Shown here piece by piece: positions 11,470 through 20,924 of a stretch of 64,000 nucleotides of DNA. The stretch comes from Magnetococcales bacterium HCHbin5 (lineage in GTDB: Bacteria > Pseudomonadota > Magnetococcia > Magnetococcales > Magnetaquicoccaceae): contig PEAG01000002.1 of assembly GCA_002753505.1 (NCBI GenBank), positions 62,001 through 126,000 of the forward strand, written 5' to 3'. The notes under the pieces are model-generated. The model ran no database searches. It worked only from the letters and a program-made list of their open reading frames with translations, and was not told the origin of the DNA. The first letter of the stretch is position 1; each line of letters begins with the position of its first letter. The translations under genes were made by a program, and so were the position numbers.

Positions 11470-12636
11470 TTACGGATCCCGCAACAGCTGTTGGTAGTGC
11501 GCCAGATGCTCTTTGGCGATGCGGCCTGTTTCATAACGGCGCACCGTGGCCAGGCCGCCAGCCACCAATCGTTGCCGCAGTTCGCTATCCAGCCAGAGGC
11601 GATGCGTGGCCTGGGCAACCGCTTCCGGTTGATCCAACGGCACCAACAGACCATTGACCTCGTGCTGGACCAGATCCCGGGTGCCGAACACTTGGGTGGC
11701 AATCAGGGGGATGCCGCTGGCCATGGCCTCCAGGGCGACCATCGGCATCCCTTCCCGTTCGCTTAACAGCCATACCACACCGGCTGCGCGGATCAATTCA
11801 GGAACATCACGTCGCACGCCCAGAAAAATGACCCGTCCCGCCAGGGGGGGCTGTTGGGCCTGATGCTCCAGTCGTGACCGCTCTGCCCCATCTCCTGCCA
11901 CCCACAACTCGGCCGCCGGGGCGTGTTCCAGCCAAGCGCGAAGGGCCAGGAGACCCATGTGGACCCGCTTTAGCGGGTAGAGGGTACCCACCATGATGGC
12001 CCGCTCCGGCAGGGTTGACCGATACGGGGCGGGGTGGCAGGCCGTCAGATCCACCGGATTGGGCTGGATAAGGATGGTATGGGGCTCCTGCTGCAGCCCC
12101 TGAGCCTGATGATGGGCCACCGAAGGGGAGACTGCCAACAGGCGACAGCGAGCGGCAGCGATGGCGCGGGTGTACAGCAGACGCCGCCAGCGCGAGGGTA
12201 AATCGTCGGCTGTCAGGCAGGGATCCCGCCCGTGGGCGGTATAGAGTGTCTTCGCACCCGCTGCACGGGCAGCCGCTCCGCCCCAAACCAGGCTGTGCAT
12301 GAGGTGAAAATGGGCGATGTCCGGTTTGAGGGTGCGGAAAAAATGCCACAGTTGGCGGCGGATGCGCCAATGCCGATCCTGGCGGTAAAAACGGATCGGG
12401 CCCTGCTCATAGAGGGCAAGCCGATGGATGTGGACACCACTGTTGGCCAATTCGTCCTGATATTCGCAGCGGGGACCGATCACCACCAGGTGAACCTCAA
12501 CCCCCAGGTGGGCCAGACTGCGGCACAAGGCGGCCACCACGGACTCTGCTCCGGCCCGGCGCATGTCCGGCAGCACCATGGCCAATCGGATCGCTTGGCC
12601 GTTTTTTGGCGGGTCCGGATCATGGGCAGCCGTCAT
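11470..12636 (-). CDS. GT4-family glycosyltransferase
   Basis: This 388-residue GT-B enzyme has MVLPDMRRAGAESVV at the acceptor-side start, then RAIMVGTLYPLKRVHMGLLAL in the middle. The donor-binding helix is EREGMPMVALEAMASGIPLIAT, with the conserved Glu pair. It ends with a C-terminal crossover helix. The start ATG at 12636 overlaps the stop of the upstream glycosyltransferase (ATGA), so the two are translationally coupled. Predicted cytoplasmic retaining glycosyltransferase for polysaccharide assembly; sugar and linkage unknown. Confidence 0.88.
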   Translation of the reverse strand: MTAAHDPDPPKNGQAIRLAMVLPDMRRAGAESVVAALCRSLAHLGVEVHLVVIGPRCEYQDELANSGVHIHRLALYEQGPIRFYRQDRHWRIRRQLWHFFRTLKPDIAHFHLMHSLVWGGAAARAAGAKTLYTAHGRDPCLTADDLPSRWRRLLYTRAIAAARCRLLAVSPSVAHHQAQGLQQEPHTILIQPNPVDLTACHPAPYRSTLPERAIMVGTLYPLKRVHMGLLALRAWLEHAPAAELWVAGDGAERSRLEHQAQQPPLAGRVIFLGVRRDVPELIRAAGVVWLLSEREGMPMVALEAMASGIPLIATQVFGTRDLVQHEVNGLLVPLDQPEAVAQATHRLWLDSELRQRLVAGGLATVRRYETGRIAKEHLAHYQQLLRDP

Positions 12637-13859
12637 CGGCTGGCGTCCTGAATCAGTTGATGCCAGGCGGTCAGGGCAATGGTGCGGTCAAATCGCTCCA
12701 TGAACAGTTGGCGGGCGGCCTCTCCCATCTGCTGGCACAGCCGGGGGTTGTCTGCCCAGGCAACCAGTTGCCGGGCTACGGCCTGGCTGTCACCCACACG
12801 GCAGGTCACACCGCAGCCAGCCGCCTGCAACAGGGGCGGGATCTCCCCCTGCTGATCCCCAATGTAGAGCGTGGGCCGACCGGCTGCCAGGATGCCATAC
12901 CACTTGCTGGGTACAATCAACCCCTCCAGGCTTGGCAACAGGGAGAGCCAATGGATGTCCGGCAGCGTCAGGCTGTAGGGAAGCATGGCACGCGGCTGGT
13001 AGGGTTGCAGCAGAATATTGGTCAATTGTGCGGTTTTGATGCGTGCGGCCAAACGGGCCTGTCCCGCTCCCCCGCCGATAAACAGAAAGCGGATTCTGGG
13101 GTGCTGTTTGAGCTGCTCGGCGGCGGCCAGCAGGGTGTCCAGTTCGTGGGCTCGGCCCAGATTGCCGGAATAGCCCACGACAAAAAAATCTGTGAGCCCC
13201 CACGCTGTTCGCAGCGGGTTTTCCTCGGCTCTTATCGGGGTGATGGTTTGACCATCGGACCAGTTGTGGATGACACGAATCCGTTCCGCCGGGATCGCCT
13301 CGCCGCGCAACCGTTCAGCCATCCGGTCACCCAGCACCACATTCCGGCTGGCCTGTTGCCAGGTGTGGTTGCGCCACCGTTGCAGCAGGCGTATACCCTG
13401 TCTGCCGAGTGGCCGCACGCCCAGGAGCGTCGCCACTTCGGGGAAAACATCCTGGTTCCAGGTCAGCAGCGCGGCGTGACGGAGCCGGATGACGGGCCAC
13501 TGGGTAACGGCCAGCAGTGGGGGATCGGTCAACACCACGACCAGATCCTTTGGCCTGGCCCAACGGAACAGCATGAGCGCAGCACTCAGGTGGAAGGTGA
13601 GATAGTCGATGGCGCGGCCCGGCAAAAAGTGGCGACCAAACCGGGAACTCCAGACGCGATGCACCTGGACAGCATCGACTGTCTCTTCGCTGGGCAGACG
13701 ATCCAGCGGATCATCATAACGCATGCGGCTGGTGATGACATGCACAGGAATACCCCGATGGGCCAGATCGACAGCCAGGTCAGAGAGCAACTGACTGGTC
13801 GCCGAATGGTCCGGGGCAAAAAAACGGTTGAGAAAAATAATTTTTCTGGAACAGTGCAT
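12633..13859 (-). CDS. WbuB-like GT4-family glycosyltransferase
   Basis: This 408-residue protein begins IIFLNRFFAPDHSATSQLL, the opening shared by WbuB-type N-acetylfucosamine transferases. LLTWNQDVFPEVATLLG and ERIRVIHNWSDGQTI are further family signatures, followed by VGYSGNLGRAHELDTLL and a C-terminal donor site near GLIVPSKWYGILAAGRPTLYI. It ends with the ATGA overlap that couples it to the next glycosyltransferase. WbuB relatives add amino-deoxy sugars in O-antigen or exopolysaccharide synthesis; the donor here is not established. No strong Shine-Dalgarno sequence is visible before ATG 13859. Confidence 0.85.
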   Translation of the reverse strand: MHCSRKIIFLNRFFAPDHSATSQLLSDLAVDLAHRGIPVHVITSRMRYDDPLDRLPSEETVDAVQVHRVWSSRFGRHFLPGRAIDYLTFHLSAALMLFRWARPKDLVVVLTDPPLLAVTQWPVIRLRHAALLTWNQDVFPEVATLLGVRPLGRQGIRLLQRWRNHTWQQASRNVVLGDRMAERLRGEAIPAERIRVIHNWSDGQTITPIRAEENPLRTAWGLTDFFVVGYSGNLGRAHELDTLLAAAEQLKQHPRIRFLFIGGGAGQARLAARIKTAQLTNILLQPYQPRAMLPYSLTLPDIHWLSLLPSLEGLIVPSKWYGILAAGRPTLYIGDQQGEIPPLLQAAGCGVTCRVGDSQAVARQLVAWADNPRLCQQMGEAARQLFMERFDRTIALTAWHQLIQDASR

Positions 13860-13950
13860 GGCAGCAGAGTGATCCTGTCCGTTGATGGCGGAGACAATCA
13901 GAATTATCCAATGAATAAATATTTTTTCAATGGTTGATGGAGAGTGTGTG

Positions 13951-15501
13951 ATGACACAAACCGATGATCCCGGTTCATGGCGCAGGTTTTTCAGGTATGC
14001 TCTGCTGTGGATTGTGACGGTATCGGCCGGTGGGGAGCCGGTTGCTGCCCCGTCAACCGCTCAGCCAGCCTATAGCACATCCGCACATCTGCTCTACCCG
14101 GACAGGGATCTCAAGCCCGCTGCCAGCCGATTGACCGGGGCGGATTGGCTTAAAATCATTCGGGAGCGGATACCACCCCTGACGCATGAGCGGGGCAAAC
14201 GGTGGCCGTTGATTTTTATCGCGGGTGTCGGGTTCGAGCCGTTGTCGGTGGCAGAGATACGGATGTTGTTGGAAAGGGGGATCACCCAGCACCTGGAGCT
14301 GAAAAGTTCCGCCATCGCCGCCGCCCGTCGACTCAAAGAGGCAGGCGCGCCCGTCATCCTGTTTGATGGCCGCAATGGCGCGTGGCCCTACAATCTGGAA
14401 AAAGACAAAAGCCAGTGGGCCCATCAATATCCCGACGCCCTGAAGGTGGATGAGCATTGGCGGGATCTGCCCTCGCCAGCCCTGTTTCGCGGTTGGGCGG
14501 TGGCCGCCGATCAGCTGCGTGCCACCCTGAACCGGTTTCGCCAGGAGCAGATACCGGTGGATGCCATCTGGCTGGATTATGAAAATGAGCCCAGCATGGC
14601 CAACTATTTTGCCACGATCCTCTCTCCCAACAGCCGCGCCTTGTTGCCCGAGTCGGCATTGGCCAACGAAAAGGCCTTTCGCCTCTATTGTCGCCAATTG
14701 TGGGTGCAACTGCTGTCAACCTATGTGGCGGGACCGGCACGGGAAATATTTCCCCGTCTCTCCATCACCAATTGGGTTGTGACCCTCTCTTCCGTGGAGC
14801 AGCCGGTGCTGGACTGGACCAATGAACCCCATCCCCCCATGGGGCCCACCCTGTTTACGGCGACCAATCCGATCGCCTATGGCATTGACACCGCTTTTCT
14901 CGCTTTATGGCAAAAAGAGTTTGTTCTCGATCAGGAGCATGTCGACCAGTTTTATACCCACATCCTGCTGCGGCAAATATCGGCAGACAGCTCCAATCGC
15001 CAGCAACAGGCTCCCTACATGGCGTCCATACCCTGGGTGGGTCGCTGGGTGGCAGACCATCCAGGCAAGAAGGTACCCATCATGAGTCGGGAACGCTATC
15101 GGGAGGTGTTGCGCCACCTGTGGTTGCGGGGCATTGACGGGATGCAGGTGTTCAATCCGATCCATGCACAGGACAGGGTGGGCATGGCAATCGCCGAGGT
15201 GGAGGATACCACCGCCGTCTACAACGAGATGCTGGGCTACCGGGAGTTCCTGGAAAAGGGTACCCCGATCAACCTGAACTATCCGGCGATCCAGTCCGAG
15301 GGTGCCCTCTGGTCGGGGTTGCGCTACCAGGACGAGGCGATTGTGCGGGTTTTTTGGCAGGGAACCGCGATTGGATTGTTGGAGATTGAACCATGGCCAG
15401 GCAGCAAGGTGACCTTGAGCAATCCCCTGCGCGGCGCGACATACCGCTTGCACCGTGAAAAAAAAGACGATACAATTCAAATTGTTTCTGTAAATCGTTG
15501 A
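13951..15501 (+). CDS. Exported glycosidase-like TIM-barrel protein
   Basis: I place the start at ATG 13951 behind GGAGAG; the frame also opens at 13930. The 516-residue product has a signal-like segment (FFRYALLWIVTVSAGGEPVAA). WLIFIAGVGFEPLS-like strands, APVILFDGRNGAWPYNL and VDAIWLDYENEPSM follow, the last placing an Asp and two Glu at a strand end as in glycoside hydrolase barrels. The C-terminal 70 residues look like a beta-sandwich. I do not recognise a named GH family. It heads an operon with a Sel1-repeat and a FecR-domain protein and lies next to polysaccharide genes, so a polymer-trimming role is plausible but unproven. Confidence 0.6.
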   Translation: MTQTDDPGSWRRFFRYALLWIVTVSAGGEPVAAPSTAQPAYSTSAHLLYPDRDLKPAASRLTGADWLKIIRERIPPLTHERGKRWPLIFIAGVGFEPLSVAEIRMLLERGITQHLELKSSAIAAARRLKEAGAPVILFDGRNGAWPYNLEKDKSQWAHQYPDALKVDEHWRDLPSPALFRGWAVAADQLRATLNRFRQEQIPVDAIWLDYENEPSMANYFATILSPNSRALLPESALANEKAFRLYCRQLWVQLLSTYVAGPAREIFPRLSITNWVVTLSSVEQPVLDWTNEPHPPMGPTLFTATNPIAYGIDTAFLALWQKEFVLDQEHVDQFYTHILLRQISADSSNRQQQAPYMASIPWVGRWVADHPGKKVPIMSRERYREVLRHLWLRGIDGMQVFNPIHAQDRVGMAIAEVEDTTAVYNEMLGYREFLEKGTPINLNYPAIQSEGALWSGLRYQDEAIVRVFWQGTAIGLLEIEPWPGSKVTLSNPLRGATYRLHREKKDDTIQIVSVNR

Positions 15502-15536
15502 CCTGATGTGACCGCAGACGAAGGGTGGAAAAGCGC

Positions 15537-16562
15537 ATGATCTCCAGATCCGGGAAGCTTCTGCCACACATGTCGATTCTCTTGCTGCTTGTTCTGACCC
15601 ACTGGTCCCGTATCGCCGTGGGAGAGGAGCCCACGCCGCAGCAACCGCTGGATCAGACCGAACAGGGTCATGTGGAGGCATGGCTGGAGAAGGGGTATGC
15701 GCTTCTGCGTGGACGTGACGCCTCTCCGGATGCTGCGGCCGCTATCCCGTGGCTGCGGAAGGCCGCTGAACAGGGCAACGGCATGGCTCAAATCCAACTG
15801 GCTGAACTGTACGTCACCGGCCAGGGCGTTGCACCGGACACCAAAGCGGCCATACGCTGGTATCAGATGGCCGCTGAACAGGGGATTGCCACGGCACAAT
15901 TTTATTTGGCTGAACTCCATTTCCGGGGTGAGGAGGGGAGCCTGGGGATTCAGGAGGCCGTACGGTGGTATGGCAAGGCGGCGGAACAGGGTATCGCCAT
16001 CAGCGCGGTCAAGCTGGCTGACATTCTGATCAATGGCGAGGGAGTGGAGCCGGACCCGGAGGAGGCCATGCGCTGGTACCGCAAGGCGGCGGATCTGGGC
16101 AATACCGACGCCTGTTTGGCCTTGGCCTATCGCTACTACAACGGCTTTGGTGTGGAGAAAGATCCGTTGATGGCCATGCGCTGGTATCTGCAGGCCGCTG
16201 AGCAGGGCAACGCCGAGGCACAGCTTAAACTGGCCTACCAATATTACAGCGGCCGTGGTGTCCCGAAAGATGACAGGTCGGCCTTTCAATGGTTTCGCCG
16301 GGCGGCGGAGCAGGGGTTGGCTGAGGCGCAGTTGGGTCTGGCCGGTCTTTATGCCTATGGGCAGGGGACGGATCGGGACTATGTGGCAGCCTATGTCTGG
16401 TTCAACTTGGCCGCGACCGGCGACGAGGCAGACGAGTTGACCAAACGGGCCCGTGCCGGGCGCGCAATGGCGGCCAAACAGTTGACCCCCGACCAGTTGG
16501 CCGATGCCCAACGGCTGGCGGCTGAGCGGTTTTTTAATCGACGACCCAGTGAACAACCATGA
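15537..16562 (+). CDS. Sel1-repeat (TPR-like) exported protein
   Basis: This is a signal peptide (SILLLLVLTHWSRIAVG) followed by about seven 36-residue Sel1 units. Each has an A-x-RWYxxAAEQG helix and an A-x-LAxLY-x-G-x-GV turn. Sel1 arrays are helical scaffolds for protein-protein contact, usually periplasmic when exported. ATG 15537 lies 11 nt after AAGGG; the GTG at 15525 is directly abutted by that sequence, so it is less likely. The stop overlaps the FecR-domain gene start (ATGA, 16559-16562), so the two products are probably made in fixed ratio and may interact. Confidence 0.88.
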   Translation: MISRSGKLLPHMSILLLLVLTHWSRIAVGEEPTPQQPLDQTEQGHVEAWLEKGYALLRGRDASPDAAAAIPWLRKAAEQGNGMAQIQLAELYVTGQGVAPDTKAAIRWYQMAAEQGIATAQFYLAELHFRGEEGSLGIQEAVRWYGKAAEQGIAISAVKLADILINGEGVEPDPEEAMRWYRKAADLGNTDACLALAYRYYNGFGVEKDPLMAMRWYLQAAEQGNAEAQLKLAYQYYSGRGVPKDDRSAFQWFRRAAEQGLAEAQLGLAGLYAYGQGTDRDYVAAYVWFNLAATGDEADELTKRARAGRAMAAKQLTPDQLADAQRLAAERFFNRRPSEQP

Positions 16563-19500
16563 AGACAATAGGGAGGCTCTCCCTGCTGGTTGCGCTGCTG
16601 CTATGGTTGGCATGGCTGTCGGTGGCCCAGGCGGCCGGGGAGGAGTCGCCACGCCATATCGGTCGGGTCATGCAATTGACCGGTCAGGTGTTCGGTCGTG
16701 TGGACCAGGCAGATCCGGTGGCCCTGCAGGTGAACGGCGAGTTGTTCGCCGATGAAGAGTTGACCACCCAGGCCCAATCCTCTCTGACCATCCAGTTTCG
16801 CGATGGTTCCACGTTTGCTGTTGGCCCCGATGCCAAAGTCATCCTCAATAAACTTCTCTTCAACCCCTTGGCCAGCCAATTGCAGAACAGCGTCAAGGTG
16901 GAAAAGGGGGCTTTTCGTTATACCTCCGGCTTTGCCGTCAAGAGTGCCAACGTCGCCATCAAAATGCCCAATATTTCGATCGGCGTACGGGGCACAGTGG
17001 CGGAAGGGTTGGTGGATTCGACCCTGCCCACCTTTTTTGCCATCCCCAAGGGGAGCGGCGTCCTCAGCAATGCGGCGGGTGAACAACCGGTGCAGGAGGG
17101 GGACGCCCTGGCCGCATTGGCGGATCAGCCTCCACCCAGACCAAGTGACATACCCGCTGCTGTCGCGGCCCAGGCAATACAACTGCTACAGGCAGAGGTG
17201 GGTGAGACCTTACCCATCGGCCAACCGTTGACCGAGGCGCAGCGGTTGGCCGATGCCATGGCCAACCAGATTCCCATGGCCGAACAGTTGGCTGGTTTCA
17301 ACTCGACACCTGGACCGAAAGAGGGGTGGATCCAGATGGGGGTGGGGGAGATAATCCGCCGTCTGATCCGTGGGCTGGATTGGCTTATCAACCAGTTTAA
17401 TCGGCTGGATGAGTGGCTCTCCACCGGTTTGCAGCGGGTTCTGGCCGAGGTTTCTCTGGTGCGCTCGGCACTAGCCCTCTCCTCGGATCAATTGAGTGGC
17501 GGTGCCCTTTCGTTGTTGACACAGGCGGCAAAGGTTGGTCTCCTGACGGGTGGAGATGCCCCCGTGAGTGCGGCACAGCAGGTCCAACAACAGGCATTTC
17601 GCCAGGAGGCTGAGCAACAGATACCTGATGCCGCCGCCCTGTTGGAGCAACATCGTCAGCAACAGCAGGCCAACAACTGGGAGAACAGCAAGCGGGGTAC
17701 CCAATCGGTGATTGGTGGGGCCGCCCTGGTGGCCAAGGATGATCTGGATATTGCCGGTATCGTGCAGGCGGCGGTTCAAGCCTCCTCAGGGGGGCAGGAG
17801 ATGGCTGCCGTCATAGTCAGCAGTGCCATGTCGGCCAAGGGCAAGACAGATTCAGCCGATGCGGCTGCCCACATTGTCTCGGCCGCATGCCGGGCGGATC
17901 CGAATATTGCGCAAACTGCGGCATCCAGCGCGGTAAGCAGTCTGTCCCAGGTTGACCGGAAAGAGTCGGCGGCCGTTATTGCCAGTGTGGCAGCTTCGAT
18001 TGCGCCCCAGAGTGCGGCACAGATTGCGGCGGCGGTTACTGCGGTTGCTGGCAAAGAGGTTGCGGGAGATATTGCCGCCTCGGTCAGCGCGGTGGTCAAA
18101 GCGGAGGGCGCAGCGATTGCGGCGGCGGTGGCCCAGGTGGCCGGACCTGAGAGTGCGGCTGAGGTGGCGGCAGCCGTGGTGCGCATGGTCGGTGCCAAGG
18201 AGGCTGCCCAGGTGGCGGGGGCGGTGGCCCAGGTCTCCGGGGCGCAGGCGGCGGTGGGGATTGCGGCGGCGGTGGCAAAATTGGCGGGCAGTGCCTCGGC
18301 GGAGATTGCCCAATCGGTCATAAAATCGGTGGGCATCAATTCGGTTCAAGCTGCTGCCGAGATGGCCGCTGCCCTGCTGGCGGTGACCGGCCGTCAGGAT
18401 GCAACTGCCCTGCTGGCGGTGGTATCCAAAGCGACCGGTATCAGTGCAGGCGAGGTAGAGGGGGCACTGGAGAGTGCCAAAAGCTCCAGGATTGTACAGG
18501 AAGCCATATTGACAGCCAAATCTGCTGAGACCAGGGCGGAGCAGTCTGAAAAGCAGGCACAGATCGCGGTGCAAAAGGTGGCTGTTACGGATCAGATCGC
18601 CAAAGATGTCGAGAAACGTCTTGAAGAGGCCTCCAAACCGGTGCCGTCTGTATTGCCCGAGCCGGTAAAGCCGGACAGTTCGCCTTCTGCTTCCGCGCCT
18701 GCTTCGACCTCCTCCCCGGCAGCGTCTTCGGCAGTGGGTGGGGATCGTTCCGGTGCCGGGTCGACTACGTCTGGAGGGGAGCAGATCAAGGAGGCTGCCC
18801 GCAGTTCAGCAGCAGAGGGCAGGAACCAGCAATCCGCCCAGGCTGTTGCCGAACGACAGATGTCGCAGGCCGTGGCCAGCGGTCAATCGGCACTCGAAAT
18901 TTTGAACGATGCGATCAAATCCGGTTCCATGACGATGGAACAAGCGGTGGCTTCTGCTGTGGATGCGGGTCTGGATCCTGCGGCGGTGACCAAGGCTGCG
19001 ATCACTTTGGGTGGTGATTCAGAAAAGATTGTTACCGCCGTGATCGAAGCCGGTGGTTCAGCCAGCGTGGTGGCCTCTGCGGCCATTCAGGCAGGAGGCG
19101 ATGCGGACAAGGCTCTTGCAGCGGCGTTGAATACGGGAGGCAGTGCCCGCGAGGTGGCCATGGCGGCCATTCAGGCAGGGGGCAATAGTGAGTCAGTGAT
19201 TTCGGTCGCTGTTCGGAGCGGCATGGCGGAACAACAGGTGATGTCGTTGGCTGTGCAATCGGGAGCCCGTGTCGAAGATGTGGCCCAATCCATGGTTCGG
19301 GCGGGAGGTGATGTCAAAGAGGTTGTCACGTTGGCTATACGATCGGGTGGTGCCGGTGATGCGGTGACCGCTGCCGTCATTGCCGGGGGAGGGGATGCGC
19401 GGCAGGTGGTGTCGGCTGCCATTCAGTCGGGAGGCGATGCCGGTCAGGTGACATCTGCGGCCATCAAGGCGGGTGGCAACGCGGGCGAAATCACTGCGGG

Positions 19501-19738
19501 TGCCATAGCCGCAGGCGGGTTGGTGCGTTTGGTGGTGGCTTCGGCCATTGCGGCCGGAGGCAGTGCAGCGGACGTGGTGATGGCGGCCAGTGTGCAGGCC
19601 CCTGACCAGGTCAAAAGCGCAGTGGAATCGGCCATCTCATCTGGTGTTGATCCGGGAGCCGCCCGCGCAGCCGGAACAGCAGGTCAATCCGTGGGGGAAC
19701 AACCCGTCAAGACGATCAAATCCGCCAGCCCATCCTGA
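16559..19738 (+). CDS. FecR-domain protein with two long internal repeat arrays
   Basis: This 1059-residue exported protein starts with a signal peptide (LSLLVALLLWLAWLSVAQA). A FecR domain follows at about residues 35-165, with GRVMQLTGQVFGRV, LTIQFRDGSTFAVGPDAKVIL and NISIGVRGTVAEGL. This FecR type is periplasmic and is known in several proteobacterial adhesin and caspase-like architectures. The rest is Ala-rich. Residues 489-617 form about eight 16-residue units. Residues 665-785 are a charged helix and a Ser/Pro/Ala linker. Residues 801-1010 form fifteen 14-residue units. It is coupled to the Sel1 gene by ATGA overlap. The repeats look like helical solenoids. No enzymatic site is seen and the function is unknown. 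Confidence 0.8.
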   Translation: MKTIGRLSLLVALLLWLAWLSVAQAAGEESPRHIGRVMQLTGQVFGRVDQADPVALQVNGELFADEELTTQAQSSLTIQFRDGSTFAVGPDAKVILNKLLFNPLASQLQNSVKVEKGAFRYTSGFAVKSANVAIKMPNISIGVRGTVAEGLVDSTLPTFFAIPKGSGVLSNAAGEQPVQEGDALAALADQPPPRPSDIPAAVAAQAIQLLQAEVGETLPIGQPLTEAQRLADAMANQIPMAEQLAGFNSTPGPKEGWIQMGVGEIIRRLIRGLDWLINQFNRLDEWLSTGLQRVLAEVSLVRSALALSSDQLSGGALSLLTQAAKVGLLTGGDAPVSAAQQVQQQAFRQEAEQQIPDAAALLEQHRQQQQANNWENSKRGTQSVIGGAALVAKDDLDIAGIVQAAVQASSGGQEMAAVIVSSAMSAKGKTDSADAAAHIVSAACRADPNIAQTAASSAVSSLSQVDRKESAAVIASVAASIAPQSAAQIAAAVTAVAGKEVAGDIAASVSAVVKAEGAAIAAAVAQVAGPESAAEVAAAVVRMVGAKEAAQVAGAVAQVSGAQAAVGIAAAVAKLAGSASAEIAQSVIKSVGINSVQAAAEMAAALLAVTGRQDATALLAVVSKATGISAGEVEGALESAKSSRIVQEAILTAKSAETRAEQSEKQAQIAVQKVAVTDQIAKDVEKRLEEASKPVPSVLPEPVKPDSSPSASAPASTSSPAASSAVGGDRSGAGSTTSGGEQIKEAARSSAAEGRNQQSAQAVAERQMSQAVASGQSALEILNDAIKSGSMTMEQAVASAVDAGLDPAAVTKAAITLGGDSEKIVTAVIEAGGSASVVASAAIQAGGDADKALAAALNTGGSAREVAMAAIQAGGNSESVISVAVRSGMAEQQVMSLAVQSGARVEDVAQSMVRAGGDVKEVVTLAIRSGGAGDAVTAAVIAGGGDARQVVSAAIQSGGDAGQVTSAAIKAGGNAGEITAGAIAAGGLVRLVVASAIAAGGSAADVVMAASVQAPDQVKSAVESAISSGVDPGAARAAGTAGQSVGEQPVKTIKSASPS
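18023..18409 (+). repeat. Coding repeat array, 16-residue period
   Basis: Residues 489-617 of the FecR-domain protein repeat about eight times with a 15-16 residue period (one unit is 19). The consensus is roughly [IV]AAAVAxVxGxxAAAE. Copies are diverged at DNA level. The strong Ala/Val/Gly bias suggests packed short helices. Confidence 0.75.
18959..19588 (+). repeat. Coding repeat array, fifteen 14-residue (42-bp) units
   Basis: Residues 801-1010 of the FecR-domain protein split cleanly into fifteen 14-residue units with no gaps. The consensus is [IV]x[AS]GG[DNS]AxxVxxAA. The 42-bp units have diverged in DNA but keep exact length, which suggests selection on protein geometry rather than recent slippage. 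Confidence 0.85.
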
Positions 19739-19772: not shown

Positions 19773-20924
19773 CTAACGCAGCGTTTTCAGGTATAAAATA
19801 ACCTGCCAGATCTCGTCCCTGTTCAGAATGGCGCGGAATTGGGGCATGTGGCCACCAAAGGCGTTGCCTCCCTCAGCGACGATCCAGAACAGGTAGGCAT
19901 CTCTTTCCAGCAGCCCGTCCCCAGCCCACCCCAATGTATTGGACGGAAAGCTCAAGGCAAAGGCGTCCGGTCCATCATTGCGGCCATTGTCACCGTGGCA
20001 TCGCGCACAATTATCCACAAAGATCTTTCTGCCTGCATATATGTTTTCCTGAACCATTGGTACGGGATTGGCCAATAGATTGGTCGAAACACAACTTGTC
20101 TTAAGATATTCTCTGCAATAATAATCCTTCATGCCGCTCTTGAAAAAGACTTCAATCTTTTTGTCTGTTTTTTTATCATTTTTATCGGATTTGTCCACCG
20201 CACTGTCCTGGATTGTGCGGTGCGTTTCTTTCGCTGTTTGCCATAACAAAGAGTCGCTAAAATGAAAACTTACATAAGTCAGCAAGAGCACTACGGCCGC
20301 AGCCAGGAAAAGAGAAACCGAATGGCTGCGTCTCTTGGCAACCGGCTCAGGGTCATGATCGTCATCCGATAAATCGGCATGGGAGTCGGGAGGTTTAGCG
20401 GTGGTTCCGGTGGGAACAACCCTTTTTTCGGCTCTTTGTTGCACCCCTGGAGGTTTGCCCTGTCCGACTCCATACAGCAAAGACTCAATTTGCAGGTTAA
20501 CAGCCAGACCACCATCGGTCAGCAGCAGCCGATACAATTTAATCAGCGGGTTATGGGCAATGACCCCCTCTTGTAGCAAGACCAGAAAAAAATCAATTAT
20601 ACATGAGATCTCTGTAGAAATTGTGGCACGCGCGACACCCTTTTTCAGTTGCCACTGGAAATAAGCAATCACATCCTCTTCTGAGACTGCATTTACCCGT
20701 TTTCCCAGTTTATAAACAAAAATCAGGAATGGAAAAATGATTTCAAAATGATTGGCAAGGGTTGCTTCATCAAGATATTTCTGGGCAACCATGTTGTAAA
20801 GACTACAGATGCTCCGCAACTCCTCCTGGTGTCGGGCCGGGATGGATTGAAACGTTCCATCTGTCCGACTGACAGCAAGAAGTTTGTCGATCAATCTGCG
20901 CGGATGCTGCAACTGGGTTTTCAT
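19773..20924 (-). CDS. Membrane-anchored c-type cytochrome with recombinase SAM-like N-terminal domain
   Basis: This 383-residue protein starts at ATG 20924 behind GAGG. Residues 45-128 resemble the SAM-like core-binding domain of tyrosine recombinases: a helix pair, then SEEDVIAYFQWQLKKGVARA, TISTEISCIIDFFLVLL and VIAHNPL. A charged linker follows, then a membrane helix at about 202-222. The C-terminal domain is a mono-haem cytochrome c with CARCH at 306-310 and axial Met probably at 360 in GGHMPQF. No catalytic recombinase domain exists, so recombinase activity is excluded. The cytoplasmic half may bind DNA or protein while the haem sits in the periplasm; this is inference. No obvious operon partner. 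Confidence 0.8.
   Translation of the reverse strand: MKTQLQHPRRLIDKLLAVSRTDGTFQSIPARHQEELRSICSLYNMVAQKYLDEATLANHFEIIFPFLIFVYKLGKRVNAVSEEDVIAYFQWQLKKGVARATISTEISCIIDFFLVLLQEGVIAHNPLIKLYRLLLTDGGLAVNLQIESLLYGVGQGKPPGVQQRAEKRVVPTGTTAKPPDSHADLSDDDHDPEPVAKRRSHSVSLFLAAAVVLLLTYVSFHFSDSLLWQTAKETHRTIQDSAVDKSDKNDKKTDKKIEVFFKSGMKDYYCREYLKTSCVSTNLLANPVPMVQENIYAGRKIFVDNCARCHGDNGRNDGPDAFALSFPSNTLGWAGDGLLERDAYLFWIVAEGGNAFGGHMPQFRAILNRDEIWQVILYLKTLR

Follow-up and report, generated by a model that had tools for sequence, protein, structure and literature searches.

Main

Composite OPX/beta-barrel exopolysaccharide (EPS) export systems, such as VpsN/VpsM of Vibrio cholerae and EpsY/EpsX of Myxococcus xanthus, are among the closest described counterparts of the system that we analyse here; VpsN/VpsM is named as a composite OPX/beta-barrel couple in the available part of PMC9601211. 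We studied a stretch of 64,000 nucleotides (the window) from the 4.19-Mb draft genome of Magnetococcales bacterium HCHbin5, in which one gene encodes a 1,059-residue protein that joins a FecR-type beta domain to two arrays of short helical repeats and ends in the tetrapeptide ASPS. The core EPS operon of the same genome shares with the composite systems an OPX protein, a BBP2_2 beta-barrel, a Wzc-like co-polymerase and a member of the VpsP family, whereas the tagged repeat proteins and the tag itself are additions here. FecR is not mentioned in the main texts of PMC9601211 and PMC9603273, as far as a term search shows.

EPS-linked C-terminal sorting is a known kind. In PEP-CTERM/exosortase (EpsH) systems, a short C-terminal signal on exported proteins is tied to an EPS locus, as set out in the portion of PMC1569441 available to us, and the core genes found here resemble exosortase-associated EPS models, with scores below the cut-offs. 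However, the PEP-CTERM combination of PEP motif, membrane helix and basic tail is not found, and the tails of the proteins described here contain, by eye, no hydrophobic segment. The pilin O-oligosaccharyltransferases (TfpO/PilO and TfpM) offer another parallel, in which a Wzy_C-domain enzyme is linked to an exported protein with a Ser-bearing C terminus. The accessible sections of PMC3643930 and PMC12645811 describe O-oligosaccharyltransferase genes that often adjoin the acceptor gene and enzymes that act on Ser in Ala/Pro-rich or C-terminal contexts, with TfpO and TfpM modifying a C-terminal Ser or Thr. By contrast, the putative acceptors here are short-helix solenoids, not pilins, and their constant Ser stands at position −3. 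Literature searches, with subscription journals mostly outside their scope, yielded nothing that we recognised by title or start of abstract on short-helix solenoids, a Ser tag free of transmembrane segments or their link to Wzy_C.

Here we propose, tentatively, that a Wzx/Wzy EPS system of the VPS type (a short OPX protein plus a beta-barrel) includes this protein as a rod-like component that is exported and anchored, with the tag Ser as a putative site of glycan attachment. The proposal builds on features that were computed directly, namely domain order, predicted helical repeats, tag conservation, location at EPS loci and co-occurrence with one Wzy_C family.

Two arrays of short helices

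Residue autocorrelation, scored with BLOSUM62 against 300 shuffles, peaks in array 2 (residues 781–1040) at lags 28, 14 and 42 (z 12.6, 12.5 and 10.8; highest shuffle 4.2) and in array 1 (residues 461–640) at lags 16, 31 and 47 (z 6.0, 5.7 and 5.5; highest shuffle 4.6). The lags of array 1 correspond to a mean period of about 15.7 residues and therefore to a mixture of 15- and 16-residue units; of the two exact-period arrays claimed in a preliminary description, only array 2, with its strict period of 14, deserves the term. A motif parse of the protein gives 19 units with an inner spacing of exactly 14 and one 15-residue step near either end. Because shuffles average 6.1 units in the same parse, it is the spacing rather than the unit count that constitutes the evidence. 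Two more capping units extend array 2 to about residue 1045. The periodicity is kept in homologues, with 203 gaps of exactly 14 residues over 23 proteins and degenerate repeats in four stand-alone relatives (L083, L084, L085 and L099). Unit number varies, from about 17–20 in two-array relatives of the window protein to 5–8 in stand-alone relatives outside Magnetococcales, and three genomes of another genus carry one additional unit of exactly 14 residues.

At the DNA level, the units of array 2 are on average 0.47 identical to one another (0.33 at codon position 3 versus 0.52 and 0.56 at positions 1 and 2), and Tandem Repeats Finder reported no array of period 42 or 48. In comparisons with the two closest homologues (63–67% identity in the region), units at the same position are 0.65–0.68 identical, compared with 0.34–0.35 for units at other positions, so the array is old and was inherited unit by unit. 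The divergence of the unit DNA, which falls mostly on codon position 3, and this positional matching together indicate an old, selected protein repetition rather than a recent tandem duplication. The earlier claim that the DNA copies are diverged while unit length is strictly kept is thus borne out for array 2.

AlphaFold2 models were built for residues 746–1059 with 8 sequences and for residues 26–700 with 10 sequences. In the first (mean pLDDT confidence 89.1; array blocks about 92–96), each 14 residues of array 2 form a 10-residue helix and a 4-residue loop, and the last 14 residues of the protein are of low confidence. The second (mean pLDDT 82.1) contains a beta domain with strands at model positions 10–161, a low-confidence middle and then consecutive helices. 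Array 1 is modelled at positions 408–566 as single helices, mostly of 13–18 residues (pLDDT about 85–96), with one 30-residue helix as the final stretch. Both arrays are therefore predicted to be ordered short helices and not disordered. Together with the conserved spacing, these models support the selection on a length-strict helical solenoid proposed in the preliminary description, whereas the fibre-like structure that it names as an alternative is not supported.

A Ser tag shared by relatives of both arrays

The protein has matches in 51 of 61 genomes (that of the window and 60 relatives), in most of which only the FecR domain is matched. Close homologues sit in Magnetococcales contigs, among them one of Candidatus Magnetaquicoccus inordinatus UR-1. 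The two-array form is present in nine genomes (the window genome and L033–L040), and all of these proteins end in SPS. Array 2 stands on its own after a signal-peptide-like start in three loci of Magnetococcales (L030, L031 and L032) and outside this order in L072, L080–L085 and L097–L100. One protein resembles array 1 alone (L147; period 15, z 12.8), and further tagged proteins have a 15-residue period (L134, L143 and L150). Judged by sequence, each of the two arrays is also found by itself in exported proteins. Proteins with FecR and array 1 but no array 2 fall into two groups: tagged ones, and untagged ones with long further domains that look cadherin-like by eye.

Ser is the third residue from the C terminus in all 32 homology-found members with a readable end, the window protein included, compared with 0 of 6 cadherin-tailed FecR relatives and a background of 64 of the 405 genes called in neighbouring stretches (members included). 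The tail of L047 was taken from another frame, past a masked run. Left out of the count are L029, which is split into two frames and whose second piece ends in ASPS, L048 and L049, which are cut by the contig end, and the tags at core loci that were found later by pattern or by eye (L127, L131, L134, L143, L147 and L150). Most tails read ASPS or PSPS; ASDS, ASPA, ASPG, GSPS, LSPS, VSGA, ASAS, ASGS and ASGN also occur. The last residue is Ser, Gly, Ala or Asn, and only the Ser at −3 is constant. Relatives of both arrays end in this same tag, a tetrapeptide that follows a Gly-rich or polar linker. The preliminary description mentions neither this tag nor the relatives that carry one array alone, nor the EPS-locus context described below.

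The cadherin-type proteins (L041, L042, L043, L044, L025 and L050) lack the Ser tag and lie away from core EPS genes; their last two residues are TP or AP in five cases and TK in L025. They put the same front end to another, distinct use.

Tagged genes lie in exopolysaccharide loci

Stand-alone 14-mer proteins were picked by repeat homology and not by context. An EPS export or ligase gene is present in the fetched stretch for 13 of these 14 genes, and a BBP2_2 beta-barrel gene for 11. At L031 and L032 only Wzy_C and a VpsP-like gene are nearby. The exception, L082, has neither EPS export or ligase genes nor BBP2_2; the genes found there are sugar-nucleotide genes (by eye), one of WecA-like and one of Sel1 type, and a FecR-like gene that is separate and split (PF04773, E 3.7e-4, below cut-off). 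Poly_export genes were found in five of the seven genomes searched, each time with a copy less than 7 kb from the 14-mer gene (none in G445 and G603). The BBP2_2 gene is the direct neighbour of the tagged gene in L083, L084, L085, L097, L098, L099 and L100, and the core Wzy_C gene adjoins it in L030, L072 and L080. Of 12 genes for FecR and array 1 without array 2 that are tagged or truncated by a contig end, 11 are embedded among core EPS genes (the miss is L029), compared with 0 of 6 for the untagged cadherin-tailed genes.

For the two-array genes the distances are larger. No core EPS gene lies within the stretches first fetched, and five shorter contigs show none; in the four genomes with contigs longer than 50 kb, core EPS genes are on the same contig in all four, 9–43 kb off. 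In the window genome, the core EPS operon (L086) occupies about 27.0–35.4 kb of contig G000:C111, and the two-array gene lies at 78.6 kb, 43 kb away. This operon encodes WecA-like, BBP2_2, double OPX, Wzc, VpsP-like and Wzy_C proteins, with matches to PF02563, PF10082, PF02706/PF13807 and PF04932, and to NF038257 (VpsP) at E 4e-17, below cut-off. The window genome thus has the genes of a VPS-like composite OPX/beta-barrel EPS system: OPX adjoining the beta-barrel, Wzc-like, VpsP-like and Wzy_C. The OPX protein of this operon (L086:9689-10789) carries two Poly_export stretches in one 367-residue chain.

Co-occurrence with one Wzy_C family

A model of the core Wzy_C protein separates its family (503–611 bits) from the other Wzy_C proteins of the same genomes (at most 49 bits). 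At E ≤ 1e-30 the family is present in 27 of 48 Magnetococcales genomes, with lower scores in G005 (202 bits) and G025 (123 bits). All 21 Magnetococcales genomes with a homology-found tagged protein carry it (hypergeometric P 1.3e-8, kinship ignored). The pattern also holds within genera g1, g2 and g14; in g2, core Wzy_C is found in only 2 of 11 genomes, which are the two with a 14-mer gene. As for the other six core-Wzy_C genomes of the order, tagged proteins were found later at the locus in G041 and G043, the end is cut off in G032, and no tagged protein was seen in G022, G030 and G025. Among Gammaproteobacteria (the class of G218), core Wzy_C reaches at least 340 bits in 24 of 369 genomes, including all five with 14-mer proteins (P 7.7e-7).

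The core Wzy_C of the window genome (L086:5010-6443) has a PF04932 Wzy_C domain (E 1.4e-18). The profile matches the WaaL-type ligase 7tpg (E 9.6e-7) over a shared HAHND region and TIGR03097, 'putative O-glycosylation ligase', at E 6e-10, below cut-off.

At L138 in G823, one of the genomes matched by a model of the tagged proteins, a related exported protein directly before Wzy_C ends in VSESMP and not in the tag. Of the two small exported proteins there (L138:8481-8960 and L138:7697-8275), this is the first, and its product resembles the start of the 14-mer family; the second ends in VSEFTP.

A candidate mechanism and its alternatives

In the mechanism that we favour, Sec export would deliver the protein to the periplasm, as suggested by the signal-peptide-like start, which was read by eye and alone supports the earlier claim of an exported protein. 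The FecR-type beta domain would probably hold the protein at the envelope, and the two predicted short-helix solenoids would serve as a rigid spacer of settable length. Locus context and co-occurrence point to a partnership with EPS. By analogy with pilin glycosylation, we conjecture that the conserved, ligase-like Wzy_C enzyme attaches a glycan, perhaps EPS itself, to the Ser of the tag at the end of the flexible C terminus. The tagged protein could then tether or organise EPS at the surface. A broader form of this idea, which we consider unlikely as it stands, is a C-terminal attachment system in which exported short-helix solenoids of 14-, 15- or 16-residue units, bearing a [small]-Ser-[Pro/Gly/Asp]-[small] tag, would be acceptors for the operon-encoded Wzy_C ligase, so that a VPS-like EPS would be carried covalently by an envelope-anchored rod.

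Several points weigh against glycan attachment by core Wzy_C. Of the 24 gammaproteobacterial core-Wzy_C genomes, only 8 yielded a tagged repeat protein, counting the weak case G058; either the two need not occur together or other acceptors escaped detection. In G058 the model match lies elsewhere in the genome, and an ASNN-ending exported neighbour of Wzy_C (L131) has no clear period. Pfam at E ≤ 0.01 finds neither PglL_A nor Wzy_C_2 in core Wzy_C (L086:5010-6443), which could be an O-antigen ligase or polymerase; TfpO and TfpM likewise do without both domains, according to the available part of PMC12645811. In G027 and G038 the tagged gene lies with beta-barrel and OPX genes and core Wzy_C is encoded at a different place, which would make the export barrel a possible functional partner. 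The variable last residue means that modification of the terminal residue, as by TfpO, would misfit some members. The stricter expectation that every core Wzy_C goes with a tagged partner did not hold in Gammaproteobacteria, where a tagged-protein model matched 7 of the 27 core-Wzy_C genomes searched.

The main rival to glycan attachment, itself on balance rather improbable, is docking on the export barrel: the protein would be a non-covalent EPS-binding matrix or periplasmic guide protein, with the Ser tag docking on the BBP2_2/OPX translocon or a protease and no glycan attached. The frequent direct adjacency of BBP2_2 and tagged genes, the arrangement in G027 and G038 with core Wzy_C far away, and library scans in which the arrays match no known enzyme family all fit docking. 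Against it, tagged genes track core Wzy_C in Magnetococcales, an argument that is not decisive because the profiling covered core Wzy_C alone of the candidate partners, and three tagged genes directly adjoin core Wzy_C.

That the protein is a generic surface spacer or adhesin, its nearness to EPS genes reflecting incidental clustering of envelope functions, is improbable and already weakened. The 43 kb that separate it from the core operon in the window genome and the five shorter contigs without a core gene speak for such a reading, but the EPS linkage recurs in unrelated lineages, the cadherin-tailed relatives serve as a negative control in which it is absent, and the presence and absence of tagged genes and core Wzy_C agree. 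Least probable of all is a regulatory EPS link, with the FecR domain as a sensor for the state of the envelope or the EPS, in the manner of FecR/PupR regulators, and the solenoids as the part that binds a ligand. The nearest folds to the beta domain are those of PupR (6ovk) and the anti-sigma factor BDI_1681 (4m0h), but this domain follows a signal-peptide-like start with no cytoplasmic anti-sigma part, none of the 14 other window proteins scanned belongs to a sigma-factor family, array-only relatives carry the tag without a FecR domain, and FecR domains in Magnetococcales also occur within very large open frames. An ordinary anti-sigma FecR was rejected on architecture, the FecR domain being present with no cytoplasmic part or membrane helix before it and no ECF sigma factor among the window proteins scanned.

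Fold comparisons

No repeat family of Pfam or NCBIfam matches the 1,059-residue protein, and array 2 as a member of a known repeat family was set aside on these sequence scans. At E ≤ 0.001, the only PDB matches of array 2 in Foldseek are three designed proteins (TMq 0.12–0.23), with no natural fold among them. Against viral structures Foldseek returned weak ankyrin-like matches only (best E 0.01, TMq 0.21). The weak PDB and viral matches may be compatible with a fold shared between array 2 and known alpha-solenoid families (HEAT, ARM, ankyrin, TPR and others). The best VIA-align matches are likewise designed proteins (Z 10.1 for array 2 and 15.1 for the N-terminal model), and natural helical families at Z about 4–7 may reflect merely a common arrangement. 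The protein's profile matches the designed alpha-toroids dTor_12x31L (5byo, E 2.8e-15) and dTor_9x31L (4yxz, E 1.2e-10) over array 2. Both the toroids and array 2 are idealised short helical repeats, but the toroid repeat is 31 residues long, going by the names, versus 14 in array 2. Because the toroids are man-made, the match is a resemblance and not kinship; neither toroid is among the best 50 Foldseek matches for array 2. A phage origin was also considered and rejected: none of 64 pattern matches in viral contigs encodes a relative.

PF04773 (FecR) matches residues 67–148 above the gathering score (E 1.3e-7), and the FecR-type beta domain aligns with the PupR domain 6ovk (Z 13.3, 138 aligned residues, root-mean-square deviation (rmsd) 3.1) and with 4m0h (Z 12.5). 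Part of it also resembles 5ix9, 'Cell surface anchoring domain' (Foldseek TMt 0.76, rmsd 1.6 over 63 columns, but E 0.21; VIA-align Z 6.4), which we take to be the retention module of an RTX ice-binding adhesin. Part of the fold is thus shared with that system, whereas the protein here has a Sec-type start; a family scan matched no RTX family in it. FecR-type domains also lie within very large open frames at G038:C1:384923-385327 (19,352 residues), G027:C1:1370605-1371195 (11,725 residues) and G000:C198:6405-6977 (3,251 residues), so the FecR domain may be a general module of exported giants in Magnetococcales.

Gene neighbourhood

The start codon (ATG) of the open reading frame overlaps the stop of the upstream Sel1-repeat gene (Table 1). 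This neighbour and the glycosidase-like gene before it are both retained in five of five same-genus homologue loci. Sel1-repeat relatives also directly adjoin tagged repeat genes in L082, L098 and L127, a recurrence that is weaker evidence because Sel1 is a common repeat. Homologues of the glycosidase-like gene adjoin core Wzy_C in L091 and L146 and lie beside or near FecR or tag genes in L045, L047 and L027, and homologues of the two glycosyltransferase genes are found upstream in L035 and L036. In L031 and L032, homologues of the integrase-SAM/cytochrome c neighbour run convergently to the stand-alone 14-mer gene; in L089 one adjoins core Wzy_C.

Table 1 Features of the repeat-protein gene and its neighbours (positions in the window)
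Feature	Position	Strand	Basis
Gene for the FecR/two-array/ASPS-tagged, predicted exported protein, 1,059 residues	16559..19738	+	Full-length homologues L033–L040
Signal-peptide-like start, residues 1–25	16559..16633	+	Sequence read by eye
FecR-type beta domain, residues ~35–186	16661..17116	+	PF04773, model strands, fold matches
Array 1, consecutive 13–18-residue helices, residues ~433–591	17855..18331	+	Period ~15.7, model helices
Pro/Ser/Ala/Gly-rich linker, residues ~693–760	18635..18838	+	Composition; facing model ends pLDDT <50
Array 2, strict 14-residue helix-turn units, residues 773–1010	18875..19588	+	Autocorrelation, model, unit parse
C-terminal tag ASPS, residues 1056–1059, Ser at −3	19724..19735	+	Tail sequence; tag conservation among members
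Sel1-repeat protein directly upstream	15525..16562	+	PF08238, E 8.3e-62
Exported glycosidase-like protein (predicted)	13930..15501	+	Weak TIM-barrel hint only, PF01055, E 0.018, below cut-off
Convergent neighbour, phage-integrase SAM-like N terminus plus cytochrome c	19773..20924	−	PF13442, E 4.6e-11; PF13495, E 5e-4
Two glycosyltransferase genes	11470..13859	−	PF00534 and related families

Discussion

Outside a few capsules, little is understood of how Gram-negative cells keep secreted EPS attached. With its single helix per strictly 14-residue unit, predicted at high confidence, array 2 provides a natural case of a repeat geometry known chiefly from designed proteins. In Magnetococcales as in other bacteria, the combination of a small, recognisable tag with one ligase-like family is a candidate for protein-carried EPS that lends itself to direct testing.

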